Below the pieces are notes generated by a model. The model searched no databases, was not told the DNA's origin, and was given only the letters and a program-made list of their open reading frames with translations. A DNA stretch of 46,026 nt. Source: Spirochaetaceae bacterium. Lineage in GTDB: Bacteria > Spirochaetota > Spirochaetia > Treponematales > Treponemataceae. A program made the translations under genes and the position numbers. Each line of letters starts with the position of its first letter. Positions within the stretch are counted from its first letter, which is position 1. The stretch covers positions 1-46,026 of the forward strand of contig JAGBFB010000013.1 in the NCBI GenBank assembly GCA_017936665.1, written 5' to 3'. Positions 23,531 to 28,533 of the stretch are shown piece by piece.

Positions 23531-25975
23531 TTAGTACACAAGTCTAAAGTTTCTATCACCATCAGGTTGGGCAAAAATATCTGGTAACTCAGAGGTAAAA
23601 ACATCAGCACCTAACCAATTATCTTGGTCACCTTCTTTAATGAAAAATTTATATCCATTCCAAGAATCAAAACCAGGTTTTATATCTTGTTCCCAATTAA
23701 ATGTTTTGGTATAAATTCCAGTATTTTGTCTGGTTAGTTTATAATCATCAGATACATCCCAGTTACTACCAGGGAACATTAAATAAACTTCTGCATTTTC
23801 AGAGTAAGCACCTACAACATTAGAATCAAAATGTTCTGGATTATATGTAAAAGTGATAGTTCCCCAATCTTCAAAACAATATGGAACTACAACATCTGTA
23901 AAATCAACCCAATTTGTATATATAGTTTCTGATTCATAGAATTTTGTACTATTACTAACAGAATCCCCATTAGCATCACAGAACCAATCAGGCCAATAAT
24001 ATCTACCTTCTCTTTCGTAACCATACTTTAAACCATCACCATTAAGCCATACTGTCCAACCTTTAAAACCACCTGAAGACAATATATTACTAAATGTATC
24101 ACCAGATTTGAAACTACAATATAGTTTATGAGTTCCGTCACCACTTCCTGTCCAAAAGTACCCATCTCCAGCATCTAAAGTTAATACAAGTCCAGTTGTT
24201 TCTAAGGTTGGAAGTTTTGCATCTTTTATTGATTTTTGGCGAACTGTAAAATAATTCATTTCTCCTGGTGTGTAGATAGTATAGTCTTTATATGAATCAC
24301 CCCATTCAGCAGGTTTATCAATAAATTCAGTTGTTGTATCTTTATAAACTAAATTTTCACTAAAAATATATGGCTCAATCATTGAATGCCATTTTTTTAT
24401 TCTAGCAATACTGTTATCGTCATCAAAGAAACTATTTTCATTTGAGTATTCAAGAAGATATTTTTGATACAACTTCATATATTCTGGAACTTGAAGAATC
24501 TTTTGAATTAAAGGATGTTTTCCGTCTGTTAAATTTCCCCAAGTATAAGGATTTGCTTTACCAGCATCAACTCCTAAGTGGCAAACCCCTAAAGAGTTAT
24601 CATAATCATAAGGAATAAAATAAGCTTTTTCATCTTCGTCAAAATAGAAATAAAAATTATTTTTATTTATCCAATAATCATCCCACATTCCAAGAACAAC
24701 ATTGATAGCATAAGTGCGTAAGAATAAATCTCCTGCCATTTTTTCGTTATAAAACTTAGTGATTTTTTCTTTATCAGCAGAATCATTTACACCATCTGTA
24801 CAATTTGGAAGATTATTTAACTCTTCCATAAAAGCCAAAATTTGAGTTCTACCTTCTTCTAAGTCATTATCACCTTTGTAGTCGTAATCATAAGTTTTGT
24901 TAGTTGAGTCCTTTATAATTGTTCTATCTTCATCAGCGAAAGTAAAAGAAACATCTTCTTCACCGATTGAATTTGCATCATTTTTAACAAAGTTTGGACC
25001 ATATTCTGATTCTGATTTCCAAAGACATTTCCAGAGATTTCCTTTATTTGAAGAAAGATATCCGCCACCTTCTTTTTCTGTGCGTTCTTTTAGGAATTGC
25101 TTTTTGATTTCTTCAACCATGGCATAAACACCATAATCTACAGTTTCAAATTCAGATGTATTACCGTCTGCATCTAAATCTAAATCGTCAATAATTTGAA
25201 TTTTAAGAGTTGTGTAAGCAGCACGAGGTGCAATCCAAATTCCGTTTTGTCGGAAAAGATTGTAAGCATAAACTTCACGGCTATATGTTGCATCATCTTT
25301 AAATCTTTTTAAGATAATACCTTTCATACAATCAGCAAGTTTTTTATCTTCGCCTTTAGGAATCCATTCTTCAAAATCTAAAGCAAAATGAGCTTGTACA
25401 TAATCGTTTTTTCCTGCTTCATTTCCTTCTTGAGGACGACGACGGCTTGTATTTCCACGGATTCTAAATCCAATATCATTGAAAAACCATTCTTTATTGT
25501 CTTTAGTAAAATAAAAACCTTTTACAACTACACTTTCTTCATGAGAAAGAGAATAATCGCAATATGAAAGATGTTTATTCCATTCAGAACGATCAAAAAC
25601 TAAAACCATTTGACCAAGTGCATCTGGATTAAAAATATTATCCAAAGATTCTGTTCGAGAATCATATTCAGGATTTAATTCTTCTGTAAATTTTACTGTA
25701 TAAAGTTGAGATAAGTCCTCTTCTGAAATTACTGGACTTGCAACTGTGTTAGGACTTTCTGATTTTATAACACTTTTAGAATCATCCAACTGCAATTTCT
25801 CTGGCAAAACATCATTATCACCAGTTGAACCACTTCCACTTTCATTAGAAGAACCTCCTGAACCAGTTGTATCTCCACCAGTTTTGTCTCCACATGAAAC
25901 AAGAAACATCATTCCTAAAACAGTCATAAAACACAATAATACTGTTAAAAATTTCTTTGTAAAATTTAGTTTCAA
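23531..25975 (-). CDS. CotH-kinase family lipoprotein
   Basis: An 814-residue secreted lipoprotein. The signal peptide ends LVSC (Cys28), followed by a Gly/Ser/Thr linker (about 29-55) and a CotH-kinase domain (about 90-540). Family blocks are FRIRGNTSRRRPQ near 170, KGIILKRFKDDATYSRE, the VEEIKKQFL region and WINKNNFYFYF...IPYDYDNSLG near 445-462. A C-terminal beta-rich region of about 200 residues with many Trp/Tyr residues resembles a carbohydrate-binding module. Spore CotH proteins phosphorylate secreted proteins; here the substrate is unknown. TTG start with AAGGAGA. Expression may be phase variable through the poly-G in its promoter. Confidence 0.88.
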   Translation of the reverse strand: MKLNFTKKFLTVLLCFMTVLGMMFLVSCGDKTGGDTTGSGGSSNESGSGSTGDNDVLPEKLQLDDSKSVIKSESPNTVASPVISEEDLSQLYTVKFTEELNPEYDSRTESLDNIFNPDALGQMVLVFDRSEWNKHLSYCDYSLSHEESVVVKGFYFTKDNKEWFFNDIGFRIRGNTSRRRPQEGNEAGKNDYVQAHFALDFEEWIPKGEDKKLADCMKGIILKRFKDDATYSREVYAYNLFRQNGIWIAPRAAYTTLKIQIIDDLDLDADGNTSEFETVDYGVYAMVEEIKKQFLKERTEKEGGGYLSSNKGNLWKCLWKSESEYGPNFVKNDANSIGEEDVSFTFADEDRTIIKDSTNKTYDYDYKGDNDLEEGRTQILAFMEELNNLPNCTDGVNDSADKEKITKFYNEKMAGDLFLRTYAINVVLGMWDDYWINKNNFYFYFDEDEKAYFIPYDYDNSLGVCHLGVDAGKANPYTWGNLTDGKHPLIQKILQVPEYMKLYQKYLLEYSNENSFFDDDNSIARIKKWHSMIEPYIFSENLVYKDTTTEFIDKPAEWGDSYKDYTIYTPGEMNYFTVRQKSIKDAKLPTLETTGLVLTLDAGDGYFWTGSGDGTHKLYCSFKSGDTFSNILSSGGFKGWTVWLNGDGLKYGYEREGRYYWPDWFCDANGDSVSNSTKFYESETIYTNWVDFTDVVVPYCFEDWGTITFTYNPEHFDSNVVGAYSENAEVYLMFPGSNWDVSDDYKLTRQNTGIYTKTFNWEQDIKPGFDSWNGYKFFIKEGDQDNWLGADVFTSELPDIFAQPDGDRNFRLVY

Positions 25976-25987
25976 TTTTCTCTCCTT

Positions 25988-26020
25988 AACTACAAAAAAA
26001 TATTATTTTCTTTTGTAGTT
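25988..26020. repeat. 10-bp inverted repeat in the CotH leader
   Basis: AACTACAAAA (25988-25997) and TTTTGTAGTT (26011-26020) are perfect complements. They lie between the -10 box and the ribosome site, across the expected transcription start. The repeat may be an operator or an mRNA stem next to the AAGGAGA. Confidence 0.6.
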
Positions 26021-26022
26021 TC

Positions 26023-26051
26023 AGTGTACATGAATCACCCCCCCCCGTCAA
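26023..26051 (-). promoter_or_regulatory. CotH promoter with a G9 tract in the spacer
   Basis: On the minus strand TTGACG (26046-26051) is followed by a 17-nt spacer that begins with eight further Gs (nine in all, 26038-26046) and then TACACT (26023-26028). A homopolymer in the spacer can change its length by slippage and so alter promoter strength. Confidence 0.65.
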
Positions 26052-26115
26052 CTAGAAAAATTATGTTATGTAATGAGAAAGCTTTATTGTAAAAAGGAAT
26101 TAAAACTAAACTAAA

Positions 26116-28533
26116 TTATTCACCTTGCAAGATAACATTTACATTAACTGTACAACTTCTTCCTTTTGAATCAACTACAGTAATTTCATGTTTTCCTAAA
26201 GGACAATTCCACTCGTAAACTTCGTTGGGTTTTGTACGGGTTATAAAATCTGAACCACAAAACCAAATTAGTTCAGATGAATCGGCATCACTTGAGGCTT
26301 CTAAAATTATTTTGTTTCTGTTTTCATCTTTAGTACGATACACATAATCAGTTCCCGTCATAGGTGAAAGAATCTGTGGAGGAAATCCATCACGGTTATT
26401 CCACATATTAAAACTTTCTGGAGGATAAGAAGGTGGAACAAGTCTTGGCAATCCTGCTTGTTCAAACAAAATTTGTAAATCACTTGGCCAAAATTCTCGG
26501 ATTACAGTTTTTACATATTGCTTATCTATTTCATCTGTGCGATAACCTGTGCGTAAATCAATATTTATCTTTCTGTGAATTTTACATTTTTCAATTGGTG
26601 AAGTTCCGGGAATAAAGTAAGTCTTTTCTTTTTTTTCGCAATTTTCTGTTGGAATACTTCCCGAAACGGAACAAACTTCAATTTCAGAAACTTTGCGTGG
26701 AGGCCAATCTACAAGTATCATATCTTGTTTATTCATTTGTGATAAAATTGAATAAGCAATTTCAAAAAATAATGGAGCAGACATCCTTCTTCCTAAAAAT
26801 GAATTATTTCCCTGCCCATCAAAATTACCAATCCAAATACACAAAATATATTTATCAAAAAAACCAATTGTCCAGCTATCTTTAAATCCAATTGAAGTTC
26901 CTGTTTTATATCCTATTGGAATATTTTTTAAATCTATTGGAATTGATGAAACTGGTGGAACATTTGCTTCTAACATTTTTCTTACGATAAAAGCACTTTC
27001 TTCTGTTAATAATTGTTTTTCAAAATCTTCGCTTGATAAATTTTTTGTTGCAAATCCTTCTTTATAAAATTTAATATTTTTATATTTCCCATTATTTGCT
27101 AACATTGCATACAACTTTGTTAATTCTAACATTGTAACTTCTGCACTTCCTAAAACGATGGAAAGTCCATAATGCTCTTTTGATTTTAAATTTGATATAT
27201 TTGCACTTTGTAAAAAATCGTATAAATCAGGATTTTGTATTTGCTGTGCTAAACTTACAGCAGGAATATTTCTACTATCTGCCAATGCAAACCAAGCCTG
27301 TACTGGTCCTTTAAAAGTATTTCCATAATTATCTGGAGCATATTCATTAAATGCTTGTGGTGTATCTTTTAACATTGTACGATAATGAATTAATCCTTGT
27401 TCTAAAGCCAATGCGTAAATAAATGGTTTTAAAGTAGAGCCTGGAGAGCGTTTAGAAGTAGTAATATTTACTTGACCTTGAATTTCGTTGTTATAAAAAT
27501 CTAGCGAACCAATATTTGCTAACACTTCCATATTTTGCCAATCTAGTAAAAGTAAACCACCATTGTGAACTCCAAAAGATTTATGTTTTGCAATATGTGA
27601 TTCTAAAAATTCTTCACATTGTTTTTGTAAAGATAAATCTATTGTTGTTTTTTTTATTTGTCTAATTTTTTTTTCATCTTTTAAATTTATATTTTCTTGT
27701 TGTGCTAACATTTGAGTAAAGTGAATTGCTTCGTTTGGAAAATCGCAAACTGTATTTATTTTCATATCCATGTAATTTTTTTTATCTGCATCTTCAGGAT
27801 GTTCCTTTATCCAATTATTAAATAAAACCTTTCTGGCATTGATCAGTTCACTTGGAGTTTTAAATTTTTCTGGTGCACGTTTTGTAGGATTTTGTGGTAA
27901 AACACATAACATAATATTTTCTGAAAGAGAAAGTTTTTCTATTGGTTTTGAAAAATAATACCAAGAAGCACTTTCAAATCCTTCAATATTTTTTCCACAA
28001 GGAACAAGATTTACATACGCATCTAAAATTTCTTGTTTTGAAAAACACATTTCTAAATACAATGCAAAAATAATTTGTAAAAGTTTACCAGGAATATTTT
28101 TTGTGTAAAGATTATATTTTAACTTTGCAACTTGCATTGTAATTGTACTTGCACCAATACGCCTACTTTTTTTTATGTAAGTTTCATTAAATGCTTTAAA
28201 TATTGAAACAATATTTATTCCATTGTGTGAATAAAAAAATTTATCTTCTTGTGTTAATAATAAATCAATAAATTCTTGGGGATATTCATTAACATTTTTG
28301 TAAACGCGATATTTATCATCTTCAGTTAAAAATACTTGAATTAAATTTCCGTTTCTATCTTCATAAGATGAAGAAAAATAAATTCCAGATAAAATATCAC
28401 CATTGTTTTTTACATAAAGCACATGAACAAAAAATGCAAGAATTGATAAAACAAAAATTGAAAGGAGAACAAGCAAAACTTGTTTTTTTGAAAAATGAAA
28501 TCTCTTAAAATTTATTTTACACAATCCTTGCAC
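26116..28533 (-). CDS. pbpC: Penicillin-binding protein 1C (bifunctional peptidoglycan glycosyltransferase)
   Basis: An 805-residue class A PBP of the 1C type. One N-terminal membrane anchor (about 17-42) leads into a GT51 domain with QEDKFFYSHNGIN near 90 and GASTITMQVAKL near 135. The transpeptidase domain has STLK (Ser about 365), SRN and KTG (GYKTGTSIG near 541). A C-terminal BiPBP-type domain follows (about 715-805). It starts at GTG with TAGGA upstream, 12 nt after the alpha-2-macroglobulin gene. PbpC paired with a macroglobulin is a well-known bacterial arrangement. Confidence 0.93.
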   Translation of the reverse strand: MQGLCKINFKRFHFSKKQVLLVLLSIFVLSILAFFVHVLYVKNNGDILSGIYFSSSYEDRNGNLIQVFLTEDDKYRVYKNVNEYPQEFIDLLLTQEDKFFYSHNGINIVSIFKAFNETYIKKSRRIGASTITMQVAKLKYNLYTKNIPGKLLQIIFALYLEMCFSKQEILDAYVNLVPCGKNIEGFESASWYYFSKPIEKLSLSENIMLCVLPQNPTKRAPEKFKTPSELINARKVLFNNWIKEHPEDADKKNYMDMKINTVCDFPNEAIHFTQMLAQQENINLKDEKKIRQIKKTTIDLSLQKQCEEFLESHIAKHKSFGVHNGGLLLLDWQNMEVLANIGSLDFYNNEIQGQVNITTSKRSPGSTLKPFIYALALEQGLIHYRTMLKDTPQAFNEYAPDNYGNTFKGPVQAWFALADSRNIPAVSLAQQIQNPDLYDFLQSANISNLKSKEHYGLSIVLGSAEVTMLELTKLYAMLANNGKYKNIKFYKEGFATKNLSSEDFEKQLLTEESAFIVRKMLEANVPPVSSIPIDLKNIPIGYKTGTSIGFKDSWTIGFFDKYILCIWIGNFDGQGNNSFLGRRMSAPLFFEIAYSILSQMNKQDMILVDWPPRKVSEIEVCSVSGSIPTENCEKKEKTYFIPGTSPIEKCKIHRKINIDLRTGYRTDEIDKQYVKTVIREFWPSDLQILFEQAGLPRLVPPSYPPESFNMWNNRDGFPPQILSPMTGTDYVYRTKDENRNKIILEASSDADSSELIWFCGSDFITRTKPNEVYEWNCPLGKHEITVVDSKGRSCTVNVNVILQGE

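Follow-up and report, generated by a model that had tools for sequence, protein, structure and literature searches.

Promoters with a homopolymeric tract between the -35 and -10 boxes are known from Neisseria, where poly-G or poly-C tracts occupy this position in porA and fetA and expression is set by spacing, according to the available sections of two reports (PMC7864442, PMC5320596); for porA, the first of these describes a tract that sets transcription through spacing near 17. Three transcriptional phase-variable genes with differing tract types were described for one gonococcal strain in the accessible part of the second report (PMC5320596). In Treponema pallidum, the promoter of the gene for the OmpW homologue TP0126 has a poly-G tract between its two boxes, with the optimum at a total spacing of 17, and a G8 reporter of the tprL poly-G promoter was more active than a G10 reporter, as given in the portion of PMC7864442 available. 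Mycoplasma hyorhinis carries a homopolymeric tract in every vlp promoter region, and the corresponding lipoproteins switch on and off, as stated in the accessible text of PMC10502178.

A promoter of this general layout was found in the window, the whole stretch of 46,026 bases that was analyzed here. Positions 26051 to 26023 of the minus strand read TTGACGGGGGGGGGTGATTCATGTACACT, consisting of a -35 hexamer (TTGACG, 26046 to 26051), a 17-nt spacer, and a -10 hexamer (TACACT, 26023 to 26028). With the tract set apart, the layout is TTGAC GGGGGGGGG TGATTCATG TACACT. The tract is a G9 run (26038 to 26046; C9 on the plus strand), which is the putative length-variable part of the spacer, and the remaining 9 nt of the spacer, TGATTCATG, lie at 26029 to 26037. 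The initial annotation had counted nine Gs and a 17-nt spacer, both of which hold, but it placed all nine Gs inside the spacer; only eight are there, because the first G of the tract doubles as the sixth base of TTGACG. Its statement that this is the only long G or C homopolymer in an AT-rich window was borne out: there is no other G or C run of at least 6 in the 46,026 bases, which are 35% A, 34% T, 17% C, and 14% G. A scan of 401 bases with the consensus promoter returned three promoter-like sites, compared to 1.5 (standard deviation, 1.2) in shuffled sequences, and the promoter of the CotH locus was unremarkable when matched singly against the consensus.

Downstream of the promoter, on the same strand, a predicted 5' leader stem-loop of 13 bp (25988 to 26020; folding energy, -10.8 kcal/mol; z, -4.3, with a putative transcription start) abuts a Shine-Dalgarno sequence, AAGGAG (25982 to 25987). 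The gene that follows (23531 to 25975, minus strand) begins with TTG and encodes a CotH-family protein of 814 amino acids that matches PF08757 with an E value of 9.7e-29 and 101.3 bits (Pfam gathering score, 23.8); this places it in the CotH kinase family. The lipoprotein signal FLVSC, with the lipobox cysteine at position 28, agrees with the earlier identification of the product as a secreted lipoprotein. The upstream neighbor on the minus strand is the gene for penicillin-binding protein 1C (pbpC, 26116 to 28533; TIGR02073, above the cut-off). No terminator was found in a search between pbpC and the CotH gene, so read-through is possible and could mask a switch at the CotH locus.

The initial annotation treated the tract as a feature of a single locus. 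However, the genome to which the window belongs (G000; 2.58 Mb in 43 contigs; 30% GC in a 400-kb sample) contains 20 such promoters, of which that of the CotH gene is the only one in the window. The genome has 18 sites matching TTGACG7, 17 matching TTGACG8, and 11 matching TTGACG9. There are 35 G runs of at least 8, and the surroundings of all of them were examined: 17 directly follow TTGAC (binomial P, ∼5e-44 at the TTGAC frequency of the 400-kb sample), and 19, together with one G7 run, follow TTGAC or TTGAC plus one C or T, which gives the 20 promoters. The 400-kb control sample was chosen by position and includes none of the tracts, so that it provides a background for genes and motifs and is unsuited to estimating tract density; it contains no G run longer than 6. 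It is extremely improbable that the tracts arose by chance or as a sequencing artifact, such as the spurious G runs of two-color chemistry. Such an origin would be in keeping with the reliance on a single assembly whose method is not stated, but the tracts are internal, have unique flanks, occur on many contigs, and are associated with TTGAC in the 19 cases above, and long G runs were absent from the control. For the set as a whole, artifact was rejected in practice on the grounds of the unique flanks and the TTGAC association, with less certainty for single tract lengths.

The 20 promoters conform to the formula TTGAC-G(7-10)-N(7-9)-TAnnnT, and the tract base is G in every one. The -10 boxes, which are predicted boxes picked by motif fit 5 to 11 nt from the tract, read TAnnnT in 20 of 20 promoters and are preceded by TGn in 13. 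When the promoters are aligned on TTGAC, conservation extends upstream of the -35 box, with C at position -5 in 18, C at -4 in 16, T at -3 in 19, A at -2 in 20, and C or G at -1 in 20. The counterpart of this conserved CCTA[C/G] in the window is TCTAG, adjoining the -35 hexamer on its upstream side (26052 to 26056, minus strand). The genome has 14 copies of the motif CCTASTTGAC; the tract follows directly in 13 cases, the remaining site has no G run, and none of the 14 is followed by a short tract. Two further G9 tracts, at C8:52388 and C22:20083, lack TTGAC; one of them follows CCTAGT and resembles a promoter of the set minus the -35 core, and the other lies upstream of a lipoprotein gene.

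Strong conservation upstream of the -35 box is also what might be expected under the main rival to a slippage mechanism. This is that the G tract, together with CTA[C/G] before the -35 box and TGA before the -10 box, forms a fixed element recognized by a dedicated regulator or sigma factor, with a length that hardly varies and no phase variation. The tract lengths lend this some support, as 18 of the 20 are G8 or G9. However, lengths of 7 to 10 do occur in the set, and the way in which they vary points to spacing: the longer the tract, the shorter the remaining spacer tends to be (r, -0.61), and as a result total spacing is less variable than in permuted data (P, 0.007; n, 20, with some members being paralogs, so that not all are independent). 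The total spacer is 15 nt in 4 promoters, 16 nt in 14, and 17 nt in 2, one of which is the CotH promoter. In many lipoprotein promoters of this genome, then, a homopolymer fills part of the spacer and total spacing is constrained. Weighing these observations with those described below, we consider a fixed recognition element unlikely.

A dispersed set of lipoprotein genes that is switched by slippage altering the length of the promoter spacer is probably the best explanation. The G9 tract in the window would be the adjustable part of the spacer in a sigma-70-type promoter that drives the CotH-family lipoprotein gene. Slippage during replication would add or remove Gs, the distance between the -35 and -10 boxes would shift among ∼15, 16, and 17 bp, and within single cells these shifts could raise or lower the expression of each lipoprotein independently of the others. 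For a smaller number of lipoprotein genes, which have G tracts within the reading frame, switching would be by frameshift. The phase variation proposed in the initial annotation is partly supported, short of proof, in that slippage is the best reading of the position of the tract in the -35/-10 spacer, of the lipoprotein target, and of the set found across the genome. A point against slippage is the narrow range of assembled lengths, mostly 8 to 9, for which a fixed recognition element could account. The clustering of total spacing at 16 could also reflect a situation in which most promoters are kept in a single state.

Tandem copies on contig C18 offer an in-genome proxy for variation in tract length, although all tract lengths come from one assembly. 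The two promoters differ only in the tract, which is G8 in one copy and G9 in the other. Identity extends from ∼30 nt upstream of the -35 box through the 5' leader, and the signal-peptide codons are identical but for one base, whereas the rest of both genes has diverged. Duplicated promoters that differ in the tract alone argue against an element of fixed length, but the one-base difference may have come from an old, ordinary indel or from a mistake in assembly. G tracts of at least 8 are also found within lipoprotein reading frames, where they would be useless to a promoter-binding protein. There are six more tracts of this kind; the frame continues through three of them (those of L074 and L080 and the second tract of L091) and is broken by the other three (the first tract of L068 and those of L073 and L078). 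Such a mixture is as expected if these genes switch by frameshift. The second tract of L068 also breaks a frame, that of a protein not identified as a lipoprotein. At L091 (C29:2576 and C29:3771), a poly-G promoter precedes one lipoprotein gene, and the gene immediately downstream, which likewise encodes a lipoprotein, has its own in-frame G9, an arrangement that would amount to two stacked switches.

All 20 promoters are followed, 29 to 120 nt from the end of the tract, by the start codon of an open reading frame with a signal peptide and lipobox, so that the products are expected to be exported, and surface exposure is predicted. Inspection by eye classified 20 of 20 as lipoproteins, and an automatic rule classified 18; the two exceptions, L071 and L096, are clear on inspection. 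Applied to 297 control genes, the rule accepted 20 (binomial P, ∼1e-19), and the enrichment persisted (P, ∼1e-14) when paralogs were collapsed to 12 families by our count. The largest target family, with 8 of the 20, comprises small lipoproteins that are partly lipocalin-like. Two targets form a pair with FGE-sulfatase and Listeria-Bacteroides repeats, others are CotH, OmpA-like, TRL-like, and DUF6567 proteins, and several had no match.

Membership of 8 of the 20 genes in one paralogous family and of two more in a pair, along with the one clear tandem duplication, would be in line with the shared promoters being an inert by-product of gene duplication, in which a functionless tract was copied along with an ancestral lipoprotein gene. 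This is very unlikely, however, because BLASTP and Pfam divide the 20 genes among about a dozen families, the spacing is constrained, and unselected tracts of G8 or G9 would decay, yet CCTASTTGAC with a short tract does not occur. Simple inheritance of the tract with the CotH gene was rejected as well, since the locus fetched for a CotH paralog on contig C5, 69% identical, has no G or C run of at least 6.

A profile search found 13 genomic members of the small lipoprotein family, of which 8 have a poly-G promoter. The neighboring members at C31:1483 and C31:2266 are preceded by promoters of the form TTGACG-spacer-TATAAT/TATAAA that lack a G tract, which indicates that expression as such does not require the tract. 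The members at C7:51921 and C22:8970 come directly after members driven by poly-G promoters, and the count of 13 also includes C29:57033.

Leader stem-loops like that of the CotH gene are frequent in the set. Stems of at least 7 bp ending at the Shine-Dalgarno sequence were present in 13 of 18 leaders (those with a recognized site, of 20), compared to 34 of 175 controls (Fisher P, 8e-6). Averaged over 19 leaders of the set, the folding z was only -1.3, and the stem sequences differ from gene to gene, some being A/T-rich. It is possible that the hairpin protects the mRNA or leaves the ribosome-binding site accessible. By eye, the paralogs L204 and L205, which have no G tract, seem to have leader hairpins too.

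The promoter was sought in other genomes with patterns of differing stringency. TASTTGACG7 was found in 2 of 274 genomes of the family, with 17 sites in G000 and one in G175. The looser TTGACG8 was found in 23 of the 274, with 17 sites in G000 and 1 or 2 in each of the other 22; only 3 of 28 of the TTGACG8 sites printed from other genomes had a lipoprotein start downstream by a crude rule, and a family-wide system was rejected for this reason. In the phylum, STTGACG8-N5-9-TANNNT was present in 7 of 392 genomes (16 sites in G000, 4 in G508, and 1 in each of five others), and the reversed-pattern control gave a total of one site over the same 392. The four sites in G508, which belongs to another family of the same class, precede lipoproteins (L245, L250, L252, and L254) that have a C-x-GDNPAP start in common. 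That all four are exactly G8 would suit a fixed element, but TTGAC followed by G14, G16, or G17 occurs in other genomes, which does not. Two genomes of the same genus (74% and 87% complete) contain no such promoter site, and other G runs of at least 8 are present in them. Among the genomes searched, the set looks restricted to the species of G000, with one smaller parallel in G508.

Searches of broader collections, which may leave out the genome of the window or near ones, gave no plasmid match for 1.2 kb around the tract, no stretch with CCTASTTGACG7 in viral_contigs, and two with CCTASTTGACG8 in genome_contigs, from a Kiritimatiellae MAG and a Pseudomonadales MAG. In the former, which is from goat reticulum and belongs to another phylum, a promoter-like site, CCTACTTGAC-G16 (L113/L262), precedes an open reading frame for a secreted protein and is the only TTGACG8 site of that genome. 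Family genomes G173, G207, and G223 have TTGACG9 at the start of related membrane-protein open reading frames of ∼390 amino acids (L147, L150, and L153), which by eye we take to be MBOAT-like; this is possibly phase variation of the coding type. In the same-genus genome G001, the promoter of one gene homologous to the small lipoprotein family (contig C147; L192/L238) contains TTGAC and then, in the spacer, a C-rich stretch with interruptions in place of a G tract.

If switching by spacer slippage is correct, a bacterium outside the classic phase-variation pathogens would have this as its standard means of driving a substantial part of its lipoprotein coat. The set would also offer ∼20 matched natural promoters with varied tract and remaining spacer in which spacing could be related to promoter strength, and material on how such promoter sets arise and spread across unrelated genes. 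Whether the 20 unlinked, slippage-prone promoters and the frameshift tracts together constitute a dedicated combinatorial contingency set, generating very many surface states in one species with a smaller-scale parallel in G508, is a proposal for which we see the chances as evenly balanced.

The type of switch is already known. What is new, and unusual, is that a single genome repeats one design upstream of 20 lipoprotein genes, which represent about a dozen families; a literature search on poly-G tracts, homopolymers, phase variation, Treponema or spirochetes, and lipoprotein promoters, with few subscription journals covered, turned up no multipromoter poly-G lipoprotein set in a spirochete. 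The initial annotation aptly pointed to T. pallidum, but the tpr poly-G promoters that it named are only near relatives in design, and the exact analogues are TP0126 and Neisseria porA, in which the tract lies between the boxes. As in these two, a homopolymer lies within the spacer in 20 of 20 promoters, with a spacer of 15 to 17 nt between predicted boxes. The CotH-locus gene matches PF08757 rather than the Tpr family, and none of the 20 target proteins matched Tpr or OmpW (Pfam; E ≤0.01).

Within the sections of the literature available, TP0126 and tprL of T. pallidum are like the promoters of G000 in having poly-G inside the promoter, and the TP0126 tract likewise lies between the boxes, but only a few genes, for putative outer membrane proteins, are concerned there, as opposed to 20 promoters of one design before lipoproteins. 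Similarly, porA and fetA, as far as those sections go, have the tract in the same position, whereas G000 repeats one tract type and one design 20 times. The Vlp system is alike in that several lipoprotein genes each have their own promoter tract, as do the 20 genes here; the Vlp tract is poly-A in the text available, in contrast to G in 20 of 20. The vlp genes are one clustered family, whereas those of G000 are dispersed and belong to about a dozen.
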